Source: Halorussus vallis
GTDB taxonomy: Archaea > Halobacteriota > Halobacteria > Halobacteriales > Haladaptataceae
NCBI RefSeq assembly: GCF_024138165.1
Contig: NZ_CP100000.1
Coordinates: 2,542,001 to 2,606,000 of the forward strand
DNA: 64,000 bases
Reading direction: 5' to 3'
Shown: one piece after another, positions 3,976 to 53,858 of the stretch
How the letters are laid out: each line of letters opens with the position of its first letter
Position numbering within the stretch: the stretch's first letter is position 1
Translations under genes and position numbers: made by a program
The notes under the pieces: model-generated
The model's input: the letters and a program-made list of their open reading frames with translations, nothing else
Database searches by the model: none
Told to the model about the DNA's origin: nothing

Positions 3976-5793
3976 CTACTGTCTGATGGCGAGGTCCGGG
4001 CCCTTGTCCATCGCCGCGAACCCGACCACCAGCGACTGCTGGCGTCCCGAGTCGCTCTGAAGCCGCGCGGTGAGCGTGTGGTCCGACCCCTTCTGCGAGG
4101 GCGACCCCGGTGAGAGGCCGAGTTTGGGCCGCGCGCCCCGCGGCCCGACCAGGAAGTTCACCCGGTCGAGTTCCCGCGAGTAGAACAACTGAAAGAGCGT
4201 CGGTTCGCCGTCGTCGAGCGAGGCGCCTTTGTGCGTCCTGACCTCGCCGCTCCCTCCCTGCCGGACGCCGCGGACCTCGCCGTCGTCGATGCGGTAGCCG
4301 ACGTAGTTGCTCTCGGGGTCGCCCCAGAGGAGTTCGACCGTGGCGTTCTGGACCGCTCGCGGGTGGACGTAACACCGCCAGACGCAGTTGGTCCAGCCGG
4401 CCGTCATCGGTTCGCTGGCGGCGTCGAACCCCCGGAGCTTCCGGAGGACCGCTCTCCCGCCGGAGCCGTCCACCGTCAGCTTCGCGCCGCGTTCGCCGAG
4501 TTCGACGCTTCCCCCGCCGGACGTCTCGGTGCCGAACCCGGCGATGGAGTCGAAGTGGGTCCGCCACCGGAGTCGCTTCCGGGCCGGCCGGAGGAACTCG
4601 TCCTCGGCGAACTGGGGCGTCCGCGCCCGTCCGTTGACCACGAACGTCTCGCGGGTGTCCGTGTCCGAGTAGGGCGCTTCCAGTCGGAGGTTGCCGTCGG
4701 GAAAGAGGTAGAGCTTCCCGTAGGGCGTGTAGTCGGCGTCCCACCGGAGGCGGTGGATCCACGGGACGAAGAAGTGCCGGAGGCCGTACCGGCGCTGTTC
4801 GCGCATCTGGTCGAAGAAGGCGGGCTGGTTCTTCTCGCTCGGCGGCGAACTGCTGTCGTGGTGGCAGTGGCCGAAGATGCAACACACCACGTTGTCGTAC
4901 CGGCTGAGAAGTCGTCCGACCTTGTCCTCGTTCTCGGCGTGGTCGTACTCCTGGCCGGTGCCGGCCGACAGCGGCAGGTGCGAGAGCACGACGACGGGCT
5001 TGCGCGTGGTCCGAAGCTCCCGGCGCAACCACTCGATCTGCTTCGGGAGGAACTTCGTGCGGACGTGGTCCGCCTCCGAGTAGCCGTTGTTCAACACGAG
5101 TATCTTCGCGACCGAGGCGTCGACGGCGTACCACGTCTCCTCGTGCTTCGAGATTCCCCAGGGCTCGTAGCTCCACTTTGTCCCCCACTCGGCGGCGTGC
5201 TGGTACTCGTGGTTGCCCCACACCATGTGGGTCGGGACCGAGAGGTCGTCTTCGATCAGGTGGCGGAGTTCGCGTATCTTCGCCCGCGAGCGCCGGCGGT
5301 TTCCCCACGCGGGCATCATGTCCCCCAGGAAGAACACCCGGTCGGGTCCCCACTCGTTCATCTCCGAAACGAACCGTTTCAGCTTCCGCTTGGTCCGCTC
5401 GGGTCCCACCGTGCCGAGACCAGGCGCATCGCCGGGATAGTGAGGGTCGGCGAGTAGACCGACTTTGACGGGTTCGACCGATAGCGACTCGGCCCTGAGC
5501 GACCGGAAGTTGCCCTCGGGAATCGGGTGGTCGGTCGTTCCGAGCGGAATCGCCGTCCAGCCGTCGCCGCCCTTCCTGAACTCGAACAGCCCCTGGTCGG
5601 TCACGCCGACGGCGGGCCGGACCTCCGGGTCGGGGAGTTCGTCTTTGGTCGGCCGCCGGTAGAACTGTTCGAACGCATCTTCGAGTTCGGGCACGTCCGC
5701 GATGGCGTTCTCGTCGACGGACGCAACGCTGCCGCCGAGCACGGCCGAGGCGCCGAGCGCCGCGAGCAGTTGGCGCCGCGAGAGCTCAGTCAC
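3976..5793 (-). CDS. Tat-exported calcineurin-like metallophosphoesterase
   Basis: The protein has 605 residues starting at GTG 5793. This start is preferred over the in-frame GTG at 5802 because GGAGGT lies 7 nt before it. The N-terminus SRRQLLAALGASAVLGG is a Tat signal. Metallophosphoesterase motifs follow in order: DPH (116-118), GD (157-158), GNHE (193-196), SHLPL (about 277) and GHCHHD (about 317). These are the ligands of a dinuclear metal centre. About 230 further residues look like a beta-sandwich domain. The enzyme should work outside the membrane; its substrate is not evident. Upstream lies a 600-bp gap containing structured repeats. Confidence 0.88.
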   Translation of the reverse strand: MTELSRRQLLAALGASAVLGGSVASVDENAIADVPELEDAFEQFYRRPTKDELPDPEVRPAVGVTDQGLFEFRKGGDGWTAIPLGTTDHPIPEGNFRSLRAESLSVEPVKVGLLADPHYPGDAPGLGTVGPERTKRKLKRFVSEMNEWGPDRVFFLGDMMPAWGNRRRSRAKIRELRHLIEDDLSVPTHMVWGNHEYQHAAEWGTKWSYEPWGISKHEETWYAVDASVAKILVLNNGYSEADHVRTKFLPKQIEWLRRELRTTRKPVVVLSHLPLSAGTGQEYDHAENEDKVGRLLSRYDNVVCCIFGHCHHDSSSPPSEKNQPAFFDQMREQRRYGLRHFFVPWIHRLRWDADYTPYGKLYLFPDGNLRLEAPYSDTDTRETFVVNGRARTPQFAEDEFLRPARKRLRWRTHFDSIAGFGTETSGGGSVELGERGAKLTVDGSGGRAVLRKLRGFDAASEPMTAGWTNCVWRCYVHPRAVQNATVELLWGDPESNYVGYRIDDGEVRGVRQGGSGEVRTHKGASLDDGEPTLFQLFYSRELDRVNFLVGPRGARPKLGLSPGSPSQKGSDHTLTARLQSDSGRQQSLVVGFAAMDKGPDLAIRQ

Positions 5794-5800
5794 GTTGACC

Positions 5801-5806
5801 ACCTCC
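5801..5806 (-). promoter_or_regulatory. Ribosome binding site that decides the phosphoesterase start
   Basis: On the minus strand GGAGGT lies 7 nt before GTG 5793. It matches the anti-Shine-Dalgarno end of archaeal 16S rRNA. The alternative in-frame GTG at 5802 overlaps this site and would leave no spacing, so 5793 is the better start. Confidence 0.65.
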
Positions 5807-6069: not shown

Positions 6070-6102
6070 GGGCGCGGAGCGCCCGCACCAATCGCTGAAG
6101 AT

Positions 6103-6158
6103 GCGCTGACGCCGGGTCGCGACACGTCGCGACCCGGCGTCAGCGCGTGTCCTTTTTT
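6103..6158 (+). terminator. Perfect 21-bp hairpin followed by CCTTTTTT
   Basis: The arms 6103-6123 and 6126-6146 are exact reverse complements separated by two bases. GTGTCCTTTTTT follows at 6147-6158. This has the form of an intrinsic terminator for plus-strand transcripts, yet no coding gene on the plus strand lies upstream. Copy 2 at 32433-32469 keeps the same form, with paired base changes in both arms. It may therefore be the 3' end of a non-coding transcript. Confidence 0.6.
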
Positions 6159-6182
6159 GGTCTTCTCGTGAGCGAAGTCGTT

Positions 6183-6319
6183 CGAAAGGCGAAGCCTTTC
6201 GTGATGTCATCAGAAATCGGAGATTTCTGATTGCAAGCGGGAGCAGCGCTCCCGCAATGACGAGAGAGCTTCGCTCTCTCGAACCACGAACGAGAGCTCG
6301 TGGGAGCGGAGCTCCCACG
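6183..6319 (+). repeat. Array of five short perfect hairpins with C-NNN-G triloops
   Basis: Five different perfect stems follow one another. They are 6183-6201 (8 bp, loop GAA), 6209-6231 (10 bp, loop GGA), 6237-6255 (8 bp, loop AGC), 6261-6281 (9 bp, loop TTC) and 6299-6319 (9 bp, loop GGA). Stem sequences differ, but every loop is three bases closed by C and G. The whole array is absent from copy 2 of the surrounding element, so it looks inserted between GGTC and ATTTTTTCGAG. Confidence 0.8.
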
Positions 6320-6397
6320 GTGCAAATTTTTTCGAGAAGTGGTGGCTGATTCGCCGTCGGCGAGTCAGCGACCCGCCGAAGAAAAAAGGTGGGTTCT

Positions 6398-7639
6398 TTA
6401 GACGCCCGTCGAGTACCGCAGAATGCCGGCGACGCCGCCGAACGCCGACAGCAACTGGTCGCCCTTCTCGAAGTCGGTGGAGATGAACTTCGTCTCGGTG
6501 CCGCGCTGCTCGGCGATGTTGATGAGGAACTCGATGGCGTCCTCGCGCTCGACCATCTCGGCCTCGGAGCCGTCTTCGCAGGTGTGGGTCGGCGTCTCCT
6601 GGCGGCGGTCGATGAACTCGAACTCCTCTTTGTCGCCGCACTCGTAGCTGACGACGTCCTTGCGGAGGTCCTCGGAGATGAGCAGGCGGTCGACCGACCC
6701 CATCACGAGGTTCTTCCGGGTCGGCTCGAAGCCGTAGGTCGCCTTGTTGCCCTCGTGGAGCTGTTTGAAGAACTCCTCCATCTCCCGCTTGTCCTTCATC
6801 ACCTCGGCGTCGGCCAGCACGTCCTCGGCGTTGTCGACGAGGTCGTGGAGGCCCGACTCGTCGGTGTAGGCGACGTCGAACTTGCCCAGCACCTTCTGCT
6901 GAATCTCGTGGTGGAGGTAGTCGCCGTCGAGGAACTCGTCCTTGGTCGGCGAGGGGCCGCCGACGAGGATTCCGTCTATATTCCCGCGCTCGGGGACGAA
7001 CAGGTCGTTGGCCATCTCGGCGACCTCCTGGTAGAAGTTGTCGATGGCTTCGAGGCGCAGGCGGGCGAAACGCTGGGCGGACTGGCCACCTTTGCGCTGC
7101 TTGCCCGGCACCAGCGAGGACGCTGACTTGACCGGTTCGACGCGCTTGCCCTTCAGCCAGCCGACGTTCGCCTCGCGGCGGTCGAGGACGATGAGGCCGT
7201 AGAGGCCCTTGTCGGCCATCATGTCCTCCAGCGGGCCGGTCAGGAAGTTCGAGTCGCAGTGGTAGCGGAACGACTGGATGGGCTCGGGCGGACTCTCCAG
7301 GGTCTTGGTGACCATCTCGGTCCGGCCGCCGCCCGAGTCGATGGCGCCGCTGAAGATGACCATGCCGTTGTCCGGCGGGAAGGTGTCGTAGTAGCGCAGG
7401 CGGTCCTTGATGGAAGTCAGCGCGTCCTGGACGTTGGTCCGGGTCTGCTTGGACTTGATGTTGCTCGCCTCGCTGTGCTCCTGGGTGACGTGGGCGACTA
7501 CGTCGCTGATTTGTTTGTCTTCGGGGATGTAGATGGTGACGAGCTGGGTCCCGGAACCCTCGTACGAGTCGAGGTCCTCGATGACCTTCCGGAACTCGTA
7601 CTTCTTCCTGTCGGACTGCCCGTCCTCGTCGTCGCTCAT
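6398..7639 (-). CDS. prf1: Archaeal peptide chain release factor aRF1
   Basis: This 413-residue protein carries the stop-codon recognition motif NIKS at residues 60-63 and the peptidyl-hydrolysis motif GGQ at 184-186 (context PGKQRKGGQSAQRFARLR). It binds the ribosomal A site at all three stop codons and releases the finished chain, working with the aRF3/EF1A-type GTPase. A C-terminal zinc-ribbon-like segment is visible as YECG and THTCEDG. Length and domain order are normal for the archaeal class-I factor. It diverges from the MinD gene, with 289 bp between starts. Its 3' end abuts the structured element. Confidence 0.97.
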   Translation of the reverse strand: MSDDEDGQSDRKKYEFRKVIEDLDSYEGSGTQLVTIYIPEDKQISDVVAHVTQEHSEASNIKSKQTRTNVQDALTSIKDRLRYYDTFPPDNGMVIFSGAIDSGGGRTEMVTKTLESPPEPIQSFRYHCDSNFLTGPLEDMMADKGLYGLIVLDRREANVGWLKGKRVEPVKSASSLVPGKQRKGGQSAQRFARLRLEAIDNFYQEVAEMANDLFVPERGNIDGILVGGPSPTKDEFLDGDYLHHEIQQKVLGKFDVAYTDESGLHDLVDNAEDVLADAEVMKDKREMEEFFKQLHEGNKATYGFEPTRKNLVMGSVDRLLISEDLRKDVVSYECGDKEEFEFIDRRQETPTHTCEDGSEAEMVEREDAIEFLINIAEQRGTETKFISTDFEKGDQLLSAFGGVAGILRYSTGV

Positions 7640-31783: not shown

Positions 31784-32329
31784 ATGGGCGTATTCGAAAC
31801 GGTCGCGGTCGCACTGTGGGCGATGTTGCCCGCCTACGTGCCGAACAACGCGGCCGTGCTGGCGGGCGGCGGGCGACCGATAGACGGCGGGCGAACCTGG
31901 GGCGGGCGCCGGGTCCTCGGCGACGGGAAGACCTGGCGGGGCACGGCGGTCGGCATCCTGGTGGGCGCGGCGCTGGCGCTGGGTCTCAACGCGGTCGAAC
32001 CCGCCATCGCCGACCTCGTGGGCGTCGACCTCCCGGCGTTCCCGCTCGCGGTGGTGCTCGCGCTCCCGGCGGGCGCGATGCTCGGCGACATCGCCGCGTC
32101 GTTCCTCAAGCGCCGGACCGGCCGCCAGCGCGGCGCGGCGTTCCCCGGTGTCGACCAACTCGACTTCGTGGTGTTCGCGCTCCTGTTCACGTTCCTGGTC
32201 GCACCCGCGTGGTTCGGCGACGTGTTCACGCTCCCGGTGCTGGTGGTCGTGGTCGTCGCCACGCCGCTGTTGCACGTCACCACGAACGGTATCGCCTATC
32301 TGCTGGGGCTGAAGAACGAGCCCTACTAA
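31784..32329 (+). CDS. carS: CDP-archaeol synthase (CDP-2,3-bis-(O-geranylgeranyl)-sn-glycerol synthase)
   Basis: This 181-residue integral membrane protein has about five hydrophobic helices. [16 protein letters not shown] and [13 protein letters not shown] form the conserved N-terminal signature. [28 protein letters not shown] carries the Asp-rich cytoplasmic active-site loop. It activates the archaeal ether lipid core with CTP, the branch point to all polar lipid head groups. The ATG at 31784 follows a CTTAAG-containing box by about 30 nt. The structured element, copy 2, begins 12 nt past its stop. Confidence 0.95.
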
Positions 32330-32340
32330 CCCCCACCTTT

Positions 32341-32526
32341 CGTTCCCACCTTTTTTCCTCGTCGGGTCGCTGATTCGCCGTCGGCGAATCAGCCACCGCT
32401 CCTCGAAAAAATCTGGACCAAAAAAGGACACACCCTAACGCCGAGTCGCACTGCGACTCGGCGTTAGGGCATCTTCGACTGCTCGTGCGTCTACCGCTCT
32501 AACGATAATGCGGGCGCTTCGCGCCC
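32341..32526 (-). repeat. Structured intergenic element, copy 2 (inverted relative to copy 1)
   Basis: Read on the minus strand the order matches copy 1: GGGCGC-GAA-GCGCCC (32526-32512), GAAGATGC, a perfect 18-bp hairpin (32433-32450 with 32452-32469), TGTGTCCTTTTTTGGTC, ATTTTTTCGAG, the conserved 11-bp hairpin (32369-32393), then GACCCG and GAAAAAAGG. The short-hairpin array of copy 1 is missing. About 25 nt are inserted between the triloop hairpin and GAAGATGC. On the plus strand CCTTTTTTC at about 32349-32357 would end the carS transcript. Confidence 0.75.
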
Positions 32527-32833: not shown

Positions 32834-35800
32834 ATGGCTCGCGCGGAGAATACGGAGCTAGTCGACAGGTTCGAGCAGTTCTACCGTCGGTACTACAGCG
32901 ACCAGATCGGTCGGCTCGCGGCGAACTACCCCGGCGAACAGCGCTCGCTCTACGTCGATTGGGACGACCTCTATCGCTACGACGCTGATCTCGCCGACGA
33001 CTACCTCTCCAAGCCCGAACAGCTACAGGAGTACGCCGAGGAAGCGCTTCGGCTGTACGACCTGCCCGTCGACGTCAGCCTCGGTCAGGCCCACGTCAGA
33101 ATCCAGAACCTGCCGGAGGCGACCGACATCCGCGCCATCCGCGCCCGACACGTCAACACGCTCGTCGCCGCCCAGGGCATCGTCCGGAAGGCGACGAACG
33201 TCCGGCCGAAGATACAGGACGCTGCCTTCGAGTGCCAGCGCTGCGGCACGCTGACCTACATCCCCCAGAGCGGCGGCGACTTCCAGGAACCCCACGAGTG
33301 CCAGGGCTGCGAACGCCAGGGTCCGTTCCAGATCAACTTCGACCAGTCGGAGTTCGTCGACTCCCAGAAGATTCGGGTCCAGGAGAGCCCCGAGGGACTC
33401 CGCGGCGGCGAGACGCCCCAGAGCATCGACGTCCACATCGAGGACGACATCACCGGCAACGTGACCCCCGGCGACCACGTGACGGTGACCGGTATCCTCC
33501 ACCTCGAACAGCAGGGTAGCGCCCAGGAGAAGTCGCCCGTCTTCGACGTCTACATGGACGGCATCTCGGTGACCATCGAGGACGAGGAGTTCGAGGACAT
33601 GGACATCACCGACGAGGACAAGAAGGAGATCGTCGAACTCTCGAACGAGAACGCCATCTACGAGCAGATGGTCGACTCGATGGCGCCGGCCATCTACGGC
33701 TACGACCAGGAGAAACTCGCGATGATTCTCCAGTTGTTCTCCGGCGTCACCAAGCACCTCCCGGACGGGTCGCGGATTCGCGGCGACCTCCACATGCTCC
33801 TCATCGGCGACCCCGGTACGGGTAAGTGCGTTAAAGGAGATACGCGGGTCACGCTCGCCGACGGGACGGAACGCAAGATTCGAGAACTGGTCGAGGAGAA
33901 CTTAGGCGACCCAAAGCCGATAGACGACGGTGTGTATCAGGAAGTGGACATCCCGCTTCCTTCGATGCGAGACGACGGTTCGCTCGCACAGAAGCGCGCG
34001 ACGAAGGTCTGGAAGCGCGAAGCGCCCGATGAAATGTACCAGATTCGGACGAGCAGCGGCACGAAGTTGGAGGTGACGCCTTCTCACCCACTGTTCGTCC
34101 AATCGGGCGGTGCGTTCCAGGCACTCCGTGCCGAGGATCTTCAGGAAGGGCAGTTCGTCGCTACGCCGCGAACCATTCCGACGAAAGGAGACGACACCCT
34201 CGACGTCGAATACCGCCGGTCGAAGGCACACAACGCCGTTCGACTCGACCTTCCCGACGAGTGGACTCCGGAACTCGCTCGTCTCGTCGGGTACGTCGTC
34301 GCCGAAGGATACGTCGAATCGCGGAAAGACGACACCGGCTACGTCACAATCACGAACGAAGACCGAGAGATACTCGACGACGTCGCGGACTCGCTCGAAC
34401 GACTGGGTCTGAACTACACCGAGCGCGAGTCGCGCTCGGGCAAGTCCGCCAGCGAAGTCTGCTGCTCGTCTGGCGAGTTCGTCAGCTTCCTCGAAGCGCT
34501 CGAACCTGCCATCCTCGAACCGTCGGCCGACCAGCGCGTCCCGGACGCGCTGATGCGAGCAACCCAGGAGAGCAAGATTGCGTTCCTCCGCGCGTACATT
34601 GACTCCGAAGGGCACGTTTCGGCGAAGCAACGCGAAATAACGGTCGCTTCGACGAGCGAAGAACTCCTGAAACAAGTCCGGAGTCTCCTCCTTTCGCTCG
34701 GTATCACTTCGCAGTTGTCGGAACGACAGAACGGGAGCTACCAGCTTCGAATCAGCGGAAATCAGTTCGGCCGATACGTCGACCGCGTCGGGTTCATCAC
34801 CGACCGGAAGGCCCGCAGTGCCGCCGCGAGGGACGACGGCGAGCAGAACACGAACCGAGACGTAGTTCCCGCACTCGACGACGACCTCCGCCGAATCCGC
34901 ACGTCGCTCGGTCTCTCGCAGTTCGACTGTGCAATTCCGCGCTCGACGTACCAGCACTACGAACGCGGCGATAGAACCCCGAGTCGGACGAGCCTACGAG
35001 AGGTCGTCTCTAAGTTCGAGACTCGACTCGCCGAACTCCGAGAACTCCGCCAGAAGGTGACCGAAGGCGAGTGGTCCGCAGTCGAAACCGCTCGCGAAGA
35101 ACTGGGCCTCTCCCAACAAACGCTCGCCGACGGAATCGGTGTCTGCCAGCGGTCGGTCAGCCTCTACGAGCAGGGCGAAGTCATCCCGGATGGCGGGCGC
35201 GTCACCGACGCGAAAGACGTCGTCCGTGACCAGATTGAGGACGCACTCGCCGTCGAGAGTGACGTACGGAGTCTCCGGTCGCTCACTGACGGTGACGTCG
35301 CGTGGGACAGAATCGAGTCCATCGAGCGCGTGAAACCGGACTACGACTGGGTGTACGACCTCGAAGTCGCAGGGACGCACAACTACCTCACGAACAACGT
35401 GGTTTCGCACAACTCCCAGATGCTCTCGTACGTCCAGAACATCGCGCCGCGCTCGGTCTACACCTCCGGCAAGGGTTCGTCGTCTGCAGGTTTGACCGCC
35501 GCCGCGGTCCGCGACGACTTCGGCGACGGCCAGCAGTGGACGCTCGAAGCCGGCGCGCTCGTGCTCGCCGACAAGGGCATCGCGGCGGTGGACGAACTCG
35601 ACAAGATGCGCCCCGAGGACCGCTCGGCGATGCACGAGGGCCTCGAACAGCAGAAGATATCGGTTTCGAAGGCCGGCATCAACGCCACGCTCAAGTCGCG
35701 GTGCTCGCTGCTCGGCGCGGCGAACCCCAAGTACGGTCGGTTCGACCAGTACGAGTCCATCGGCGAGCAAATCGACCTCGAACCCGCGCTCATCTCGCGG

Positions 35801-36517
35801 TTCGACCTCATCTTTACGGTCACCGACCAGCCCGACGAGGAACACGACAAGCGGCTGGCCGAGCACATCCTCCAGACCAACTACGCGGGCCAGCTCAACA
35901 CCCAGCGGACCGAGATGAACGCGCCCAACATCTCCGAGGAGGAGGTCAACAGCCAGACCGAGGAGGTCGCGCCCGCCATCGACGCCGACCTGCTCCGGAA
36001 GTACATCGCCTATTCGAAGCGCAACTGCTACCCGACGATGACCGACGAGGCGATGGAGACCATCCGGGACTTCTACGTCGACCTCCGGACGAAGGGCGCC
36101 GACGAGGACGCCCCCGTGCCGGTCACCGCCCGGAAACTGGAGGCGCTGGTTCGGCTCTCGGAGGCGAGCGCCCGCGTTCGACTCTCCGACAGCGTCGAAA
36201 TCGAGGACGCCGAGCGCGCGGTCGAGATTACCCGGTCGTGTCTCCAGGACATCGGCGTCGACCCCGAGACGGGTCAGTTCGACGCCGACGTGGTCGAGAC
36301 GGGCACCTCGAAGAGCCAGCGCGACCGCATCAAGAACATCAAACAGCTCATCGCCGAGATCGAAGAGGAGTACGACGACGGCGCGCCCGTCGACGTGGTG
36401 CTCGACCGCGCCGAGGAGATCGGCATGGACCACTCGAAGGCCGAACACGAGATAGACAAGCTGAAACAGAAGGGCGAGGTGTACGAACCCTCGACCGACC
36501 ACCTCCGGACGACGTAA
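32834..36517 (+). CDS. mcm: Replicative helicase MCM containing one intein
   Basis: The precursor has 1227 residues; without the intein (332-860) the helicase is 698 residues, the usual haloarchaeal size. The N-domain carries a zinc-binding CQRCG...CQGC. The Walker A motif GDPGTGKS is split by the intein after Lys331. Walker B (LADKGIAAVDELDKM), sensor and arginine-finger regions (LISRFDLIF) follow. A C-terminal winged helix (LIAEIEEEYDDGAPVDVVLDRAEEIGMD) ends the protein. MCM is the hexameric DNA-unwinding motor of archaeal replication. The P-loop is interrupted, so the protein can work only after splicing. It stands alone and converges on the beta-helix gene. Confidence 0.97.
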   Translation: MARAENTELVDRFEQFYRRYYSDQIGRLAANYPGEQRSLYVDWDDLYRYDADLADDYLSKPEQLQEYAEEALRLYDLPVDVSLGQAHVRIQNLPEATDIRAIRARHVNTLVAAQGIVRKATNVRPKIQDAAFECQRCGTLTYIPQSGGDFQEPHECQGCERQGPFQINFDQSEFVDSQKIRVQESPEGLRGGETPQSIDVHIEDDITGNVTPGDHVTVTGILHLEQQGSAQEKSPVFDVYMDGISVTIEDEEFEDMDITDEDKKEIVELSNENAIYEQMVDSMAPAIYGYDQEKLAMILQLFSGVTKHLPDGSRIRGDLHMLLIGDPGTGKCVKGDTRVTLADGTERKIRELVEENLGDPKPIDDGVYQEVDIPLPSMRDDGSLAQKRATKVWKREAPDEMYQIRTSSGTKLEVTPSHPLFVQSGGAFQALRAEDLQEGQFVATPRTIPTKGDDTLDVEYRRSKAHNAVRLDLPDEWTPELARLVGYVVAEGYVESRKDDTGYVTITNEDREILDDVADSLERLGLNYTERESRSGKSASEVCCSSGEFVSFLEALEPAILEPSADQRVPDALMRATQESKIAFLRAYIDSEGHVSAKQREITVASTSEELLKQVRSLLLSLGITSQLSERQNGSYQLRISGNQFGRYVDRVGFITDRKARSAAARDDGEQNTNRDVVPALDDDLRRIRTSLGLSQFDCAIPRSTYQHYERGDRTPSRTSLREVVSKFETRLAELRELRQKVTEGEWSAVETAREELGLSQQTLADGIGVCQRSVSLYEQGEVIPDGGRVTDAKDVVRDQIEDALAVESDVRSLRSLTDGDVAWDRIESIERVKPDYDWVYDLEVAGTHNYLTNNVVSHNSQMLSYVQNIAPRSVYTSGKGSSSAGLTAAAVRDDFGDGQQWTLEAGALVLADKGIAAVDELDKMRPEDRSAMHEGLEQQKISVSKAGINATLKSRCSLLGAANPKYGRFDQYESIGEQIDLEPALISRFDLIFTVTDQPDEEHDKRLAEHILQTNYAGQLNTQRTEMNAPNISEEEVNSQTEEVAPAIDADLLRKYIAYSKRNCYPTMTDEAMETIRDFYVDLRTKGADEDAPVPVTARKLEALVRLSEASARVRLSDSVEIEDAERAVEITRSCLQDIGVDPETGQFDADVVETGTSKSQRDRIKNIKQLIAEIEEEYDDGAPVDVVLDRAEEIGMDHSKAEHEIDKLKQKGEVYEPSTDHLRTT
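33827..35413 (+). mobile_element. Intein with LAGLIDADG endonuclease and two HTH-like segments inside mcm
   Basis: This is a 529-residue intein, precursor residues 332-860. It starts at Cys332 (CVKGDTRVTLADG) and ends VVSHN before extein Ser861. The splicing block B is LEVTPSHPLF. LAGLIDADG-type motifs are LVGYVVAEGY (484-493) and FLRAYIDSEG (584-593); both keep an acidic residue, so the endonuclease may be active. Between endonuclease and C-terminal splicing block lie two Xre-like segments, LGLSQFDCAIPRSTYQHYERG (from about 692) and LGLSQQTLADGIGVCQRSVS (from about 757). The insertion point is the ATP-binding P-loop, a classical intein site. Confidence 0.93.
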
Positions 36518-53458: not shown

Positions 53459-53858
53459 CTTTCTCCCGGAAATCTGACCCACAGACGTTTAACGTTTCTC
53501 ACACGATTCCTGTACGACTACTCGACGCTACGGTATCGAACGATACGAGCGACGCTGACCGCGGAGTGGAACGCCTCGAACGCTCGCCGCTTCGTGCGGC
53601 GACAATCCTCGCGAGGGATGAGCGAACGACCGGAGCGAGTGATCGAATCGGCTGGGGAGGCGTGTGGCCTGCGTCTGCGCGAGCAAAGCGAGTGCAGGCT
53701 CGTCGGACCGCCGGTCCGACGGCGGTCGCAGTGCGGTTGCTCGTTCGCATCGTGCGAGTAGCAGTCTACGGTGCGGTGGCCATCGCGGTTCTGACTCGTA
53801 GCCATCGTACGAGGCACAGACACGGCCACCACTCGCATAACCGAAAACCACGGACGAC
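53459..53858. other. Gap resembling a dispersed haloarchaeal intergenic repeat
   Basis: No real gene is seen. The run GATGAGCGAACGACCGGAGC (about 53628) and GGCTGGGGAGGCGTGTGG (53651-53668) resemble, from memory, a repeat family found in many haloarchaeal intergenic regions. A perfect 9-bp hairpin with loop GCC lies at 53701-53721. Open frames crossing the gap are arginine-rich and not credible proteins. Confidence 0.45.

Follow-up and report, generated by a model that had tools for sequence, protein, structure and literature searches.

A dispersed two-hairpin element at gene ends of Halobacteriales is a probable bidirectional transcription terminator

Introduction

Haloarchaeal RNA polymerase terminates at T-tracts, and a bare T-tract suffices for archaeal termination. 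In bacteria, typical bidirectional terminators consist of a single shared hairpin flanked by A and T runs, and REP/BIME repeats are dispersed intergenic palindromes that lie after genes, can influence transcript 3' ends and have the stems as their conserved part.

The element family that we report from Halorussus vallis likewise consists of dispersed intergenic palindromes after genes, but here the stems vary and the linkers are conserved. It shares with archaeal T-tract terminators (aCPSF1/FttA; Haloferax volcanii) an intergenic position and T-runs just past stop codons, followed by C; however, Haloferax volcanii terminators have a short T-stretch and an occasional hairpin (PMC7237163), whereas the present element is about 130 bp long, combines two covarying hairpins with conserved linkers and has T-tracts in either strand. 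Palindromic units with T-runs for both strands also lie between bacterial genes, as in the bidirectional intrinsic terminators of Bacillus, and their stems likewise show compensatory changes, but their pairs switch mostly via G-U (PMC5381666), whereas the element has two hairpins, is asymmetric and conserves its linkers. Haloquadratum MITEs, PATEs and small mobile repeats are similarly short, dispersed, palindrome-rich and haloarchaeal, with up to tens of copies (PMC3119063). Those repeats show fresh insertion between strains, often into other mobile elements, and their terminal repeats or terminal palindromes are alike between copies (PMC3119063), whereas here the stems differ and the positions are common to species. 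The family appears undescribed in the open-access literature searched, a search outside which most subscription papers lie and which is not proof of novelty.

The analysis started from a stretch of 64,000 nucleotides of the H. vallis genome (hereafter the window), in which an initial annotation had noted a structured intergenic unit present twice, in inverted orientation, beside prf1 and carS. A small RNA family, a paired terminator module and a miniature mobile element had been offered as explanations, and the evidence below favours the terminator module.

Results

The two window copies belong to a dispersed family

All the parts named in the initial annotation were present in both copies, in the order given (Table 1). 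Both copies are real, but they are two of about 35, and copy 1 differs from copy 2 by the insertion of an array of roughly 160 bp between its two T-tracts, which is also found in the copy at C1:2076173. This array consists of about six short hairpins, pieces of which occur elsewhere in the genome. The folding of hairpin 1 as RNA was far beyond chance in both copies (z = -8.0 in copy 1 and -8.4 in copy 2), and hairpin 2, on the plus strand of the element, gave z = -4.2 and -6.0, respectively.

Each copy ends just past the stop codon of the facing gene, as had been claimed, at a distance of 5 nt from prf1 (copy 1) and 16 nt from carS (copy 2), and the minus strand of copy 1 reads CCACC-T6 directly past the prf1 stop. 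The genes on the far side, encoding a metallophosphatase and Mcm, both point away from the element, so that hairpin 1 and the following T6 are not entered from any coding gene, in agreement with the annotation. The mcm gene contains an intein with LAGLIDADG and HTH domains.

Table 1. Positions of the element copies, their parts, neighbouring genes and associated motifs (window coordinates unless C1 or a locus is given)
Feature	Position	Strand	Basis or remark
Copy 1, whole unit	6070-6392	+	
Copy 1 outer triloop hairpin GGGCGC-GGA-GCGCCC	6070-6084	+	sequence
Copy 1 hairpin 1	6101-6148	+	about 22 bp; start in GAAGATGC
Copy 1 first T6 (T6a)	6153-6158	+	sequence; terminator-like match
Copy 1 inserted short-hairpin array, about 160 bp	about 6163-6322	+	absent from copy 2
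Copy 1 second T6 (T6b)	6327-6332	+	pairs with A6 of hairpin 2
Copy 1 hairpin 2 with A6 and GGTGG end	6333-6392	+	A6 6382-6387; GGTGG 6388-6392
Copy 2, whole unit	32526-32346	-	
Copy 2 outer triloop hairpin GGGCGC-GAA-GCGCCC	32512-32526	-	sequence
Copy 2 hairpin 1	32431-32471	-	
Copy 2 T6a	32420-32425	-	sequence
Copy 2 T6b	32406-32411	-	sequence
Copy 2 hairpin 2	32346-32416	-	CCA/TGG base; A6 32351-32356; GGTGG 32346-32350
Metallophosphatase gene, hairpin 1 side of copy 1	3976-5802	-	reads away
prf1 (archaeal release factor aRF1), abutted by copy 1	6398-7639	-	Pfam eRF1 domains
carS (CDP-archaeol synthase), abutted by copy 2	31784-32329	+	Pfam CarS-like
mcm gene, hairpin 1 side of copy 2	32834-36517	+	reads away
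Second GGTGG-like end	32331-32350; C1 2528481, 1289591, 2356872, 2951848, 2641719, 1421325		
Motif TCGGYTGGGGAGGYGTGTGGC	53648-53668	+	80 other places in genome
Gene-end copies in other species	loci L080, L169, L174, L180-L199, L211-L270		sometimes tandem arrays

When copy 1 was used as the BLAST query against its own genome, 89 pieces were obtained, which grouped into about 31 copies, nearly all located on the 3.96-Mb chromosome. A covariance model trained on 24 copies, whose E-values are rough, brought in about four others, of which some are degenerate, giving a total of about 35 dispersed copies. The core runs in the order hairpin 1, T5-6, GGTCCAGA, T5-6, hairpin 2, A5-6 and GGTGG. In full, it reads 5' to 3' as GAAGATGC, hairpin 1, GTGTCC, T6, GGTCCAGA, T6, C, a conserved purine-rich GAGGAG stretch, hairpin 2, CCGACGAA, A6 and GGTGG, and the stem of hairpin 1 has 17-23 bp and is frequently perfect. 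Seen from the gene side, on the opposite strand, the order is stop codon, CCACC, T6 and C. The outer triloop block of copy 1 also lies upstream of many other copies.

Two further repeats were seen. A second GGTGG-like end (GGTGGGAACGAAAGGTGGG or close to it) precedes the stop codon in seven copies, which suggests a longer end common to these seven. A separate dispersed motif, TCGGYTGGGGAGGYGTGTGGC, occurs in 81 genome copies with at most one mismatch (reversed control, 0), often in inverted pairs about 200 nt apart; it is preceded by a GAGGGATGA block where this was looked at, and about 10 of its copies neighbour the element on the side of hairpin 1.

The element abuts gene ends and carries stop-like signals on both strands

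Placement was assessed with genes called by a simple gene finder and scorer trained on the window. In 25 of the 31 copies, a facing stop codon was located 1-21 nt from the GGTGG end, which places CCACC-T5-6 on the coding strand within the same distance past the stop, as in an archaeal T-tract terminator; in another five copies, the GGTGG end lay 36-90 nt before a start codon, near a promoter. Over all fetched loci, 53 of 95 distinct elements had a facing stop within 30 nt, compared with an expectation of 4.8% from the intergenic positions of the window. In genomes of other families, the GGTGG end also adjoins the 3' ends of tRNAs (L188, L240). The genes served include what we take, from their sequences, to be conserved housekeeping genes, namely aRF1, CarS, transcription factor S (TFS), a ribosomal protein and succinate dehydrogenase. 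For 18 of the 25 copies next to a stop, the gene on the other side is directed away from the element and no coding gene enters hairpin 1, so that hairpin 1 and its T-tracts would face non-coding transcription, if any.

The T-runs on the two strands change length together, being (6,6,6) in 64 and (5,5,5) in 42 of 134 elements. The base following the gene-side (minus-strand) T-run was C in 108 of the 134, and the intergenic termination sites of Haloferax volcanii likewise have a T-stretch with termination at C (PMC7237163). On the plus strand, hairpin 1 with its T6 resembles an intrinsic terminator, and termination-like signals are present on both strands, as expected of a bidirectional terminator.

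Copies of gene ends adjoin the element in other species

In other families, as well as in Halorussus amylolyticus and Haladaptatus, some elements are followed by a copy of the 3' end of the gene that they abut. Directly after GGTGG, 40 of 82 elements examined carried a frameshifted copy of the 3' end of the upstream gene, involving about 20 different genes, so that the order at such loci is gene stop, element, and then the copied 3' end of the same gene. Among the 29 cases with an offset of 4-5, 20 had their first three bases matching the gene exactly, followed by 1-2 extra bases that shift the frame, after which the match resumes. With three misregistered cases left out, 59 of the 97 differences between gene and copy fell at third codon positions, and some pairs thus look like two functional alleles. 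No gene-end copies were found in the H. vallis genome.

These copies may have arisen by allele replacement whose junction is fixed at the base of the hairpin, or by template switching at hairpin 2. A diversity-generating retroelement, which would confine the differences to adenines of its template repeat and have a reverse transcriptase nearby, seems less likely, since the substitutions are mixed; third codon positions are over-represented, and an adenine bias was judged by eye only. Target duplication was also considered as the source of the three nucleotides after GGTGG, and the 1-2 extra nucleotides that come next remain unaccounted for by it. Beyond acting as a terminator, the element may be a distinct DNA unit that ends exactly at GGTGG, where hairpin 2 has its base, and that is spread or multiplied by an undescribed hairpin-dependent process. 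This process would copy the 3' end of the adjoining gene, leave a frameshifted fragment and so replace gene ends and terminators across Halobacteriales; we put this forward tentatively and think it rather unlikely.

Positions are shared between species while copy number varies

The search of the genome and of other haloarchaea, together with the covariance model, revealed a family across Halobacteriales. Of 195 genomes belonging to the order, 77 contained the exact 18-mer TTTTTGGTCCAGMTTTTT and none its reversed control; the 18-mer was absent from all 101 genomes of the same phylum searched outside the order. Exact core matches in public genomes were mostly to Halorussus among the named matches. 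The covariance model matched 1 to 40 times per congener, with about 40 matches in H. halophilus, and tandem arrays of the element were seen. Eleven matches to the 18-mer on viral contigs lay in AT-rich DNA with the rest of the element missing and were attributed to chance; in the plasmid collection, only two Halorussus plasmids matched, with nothing annotated under the match.

Among 38 elements of relatives, 16 adjoin the ortholog of a gene that has an element in H. vallis, where about 0.3 would be expected at random; the positions are common to species and the stem sequences are not. The initial annotation had named a lack of further copies or orthologous positions in related genomes as part of what would refute it, and both were found here. 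Orthologs were searched for four sites (prf1, carS, TFS and L10e). At the ends of carS and TFS, 6 of 18 congeners each were picked out by a script as having the architecture, and further diverged versions were visible by eye. Several other species thus have, at the 3' ends of both genes, an element built alike but with other hairpins. The L10e end had it in 2 of 18 congeners, and among 29 readable prf1 ends, the element was present only in H. vallis and H. halophilus. Given this rare occupation of the prf1 site and the range of copy number among congeners, no given site is indispensable.

These data bear on the proposal that the family is a non-autonomous mobile element of the MITE, PATE or small mobile repeat type, which inserts at gene ends and whose T-tracts are incidental. 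The dispersal of about 35 copies, their very uneven number among congeners, the tandem arrays, the sharp right end at GGTGG where gene-end copies come next, and linkers more conserved than function seems to require all fit such an origin, and to this extent the suggestion of a miniature mobile element in the initial annotation keeps some plausibility. The orthologous positions do not fit it, nor does the confinement mostly to gene 3' ends or promoter edges. PATEs are IS605-derived, with near-terminal palindromes related to IS605-type ends; the palindromes of the present element vary in sequence from copy to copy, whereas mobile palindromes normally conserve their stems. The flanks in this genome showed no long direct repeats (best local score 19), a search that duplications of a few bases would escape; target duplications are not made by all MITEs. 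Simple transposition is thus disfavoured, and we regard the mobile-element explanation as unlikely.

Both stems turn over while remaining paired

In the consensus structure, 99.1% of 1056 cells were paired. Two-sided changes affected 19 of 44 pairs (155 cells), compared with one-sided changes in eight cells, whereas a control with the partner slid by 1 to 3 columns gave 36-52% pairing and 5-26 two-sided cells. The initial annotation had reported at least two matched base-pair changes in the long hairpin; these are genuine and far more numerous than two, with many hairpin 1 pairs differing genome-wide, and covariation between copies is massive in both hairpins. A comparison of genomes shows CCA/TGG, the basal triplet of hairpin 2, changed to GCA/TGC or CGA/TCG, which indicates that this base is also paired. 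The hairpin 2 triloop differs in frequency between strands (GNA 50, TNC 20), a bias judged too weak as evidence for an RNA role.

The kind of change matters for what the covariation means. A G-U pair could have been the intermediate in only 41% of pair contrasts, whereas 79% of switches in Bacillus cereus terminators pass through G-U (PMC5381666). In three copies (C1 2528481, 2277218 and 2140916), one arm of hairpin 2 has been rewritten as the complement of the other, suggesting that arms were copied onto each other at the DNA level. The covariation, which the initial annotation took as an argument for selection on structure, therefore supports RNA function less strongly than it seems to: it is massive, but alone it is no proof regarding RNA, and the substitutions point to arm-copying in DNA.

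Hairpin 1 identity was 0.69 within each of two genomes, H. vallis and H. halophilus, compared with 0.52 between their orthologous sites, the level of non-orthologous sites. The sites thus persist and the stems are homogenised, as gene conversion would give. We infer that gene conversion together with arm-onto-arm copying homogenises the copies within one genome and probably keeps the stems paired while their sequence turns over. In a polyploid haloarchaeon, gene conversion has been described as very efficient (PMC8223754, PMC11276520).

The excess of two-sided changes, the low share of G-U-passable contrasts and the three rewritten arms would also suit a chromosome element whose hairpins act as DNA, either as a cruciform or as a binding site for a nucleoid or replication protein. 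Such an element seems very unlikely to us, since the T-tracts, the abutment to stop codons and the placement at tRNA ends are explained by termination instead, and the arm pattern is also expected from template switching combined with selection on a two-strand terminator. A family of small non-coding RNAs whose transcripts start on the hairpin 1 side and end at T6a is hardly credible: the 18 copies into whose hairpin 1 no coding gene reads and the nearly 2800 sRNAs of Haloferax volcanii (PMC6560208) would suit it, but a scan of the 64-kb window gave no Rfam covariance-model match at gathering score, comparison of the copies of this genome found no conserved body upstream of hairpin 1 common to all of them, G-U pairs are few, and the opposite end is tied to gene stops, needless for an sRNA, with the location set by gene ends and promoters.

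Discussion

We consider the element to be probably a bidirectional transcription terminator or insulator of Halobacteriales, with a probability of roughly two in three, judged from sequence. Its T-tracts, present on both strands, would be the sites of termination, strengthened by hairpin 1, a strong hairpin on the side away from the gene, and hairpin 2 would serve as a spacer. A polymerase arriving from the gene side would meet CCACC-T6-C a few nucleotides past the stop codon or the tRNA 3' end and terminate at the T-tract. A polymerase from the opposite side would meet hairpin 1 and then two T-tracts 8 nt apart, and would terminate there; it could come from a converging gene, from a tandem upstream gene or, in non-coding transcription, from the rear of the next promoter. 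Divergent transcription behind promoters, described for prokaryotes (PMC10268837), is a possible target of hairpin 1. Hairpin 2 would keep the stops for the two directions apart and thereby prevent an overlap of opposing transcripts.

Several features count against a terminator. Archaeal termination needs no more than a bare T-tract, so hairpin 2 and the conserved linkers exceed the requirement. The uneven number of matches among congeners and the rare occupation of the prf1 site also speak against it, and a plain terminator does not predict the duplicated gene ends that adjoin the element in other families. These duplications may point to a new route of gene-end exchange.

If termination is confirmed, selected haloarchaeal genes and tRNAs would have a structured, order-wide, two-sided stop, in contrast to the prevailing view of archaeal terminators as simple U-tracts or runs of T. 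The elements would then offer ready-made insulators for archaeal genetics, and their hairpins would form a natural, fast-turnover set for the study of gene conversion and palindrome correction in polyploid archaea.
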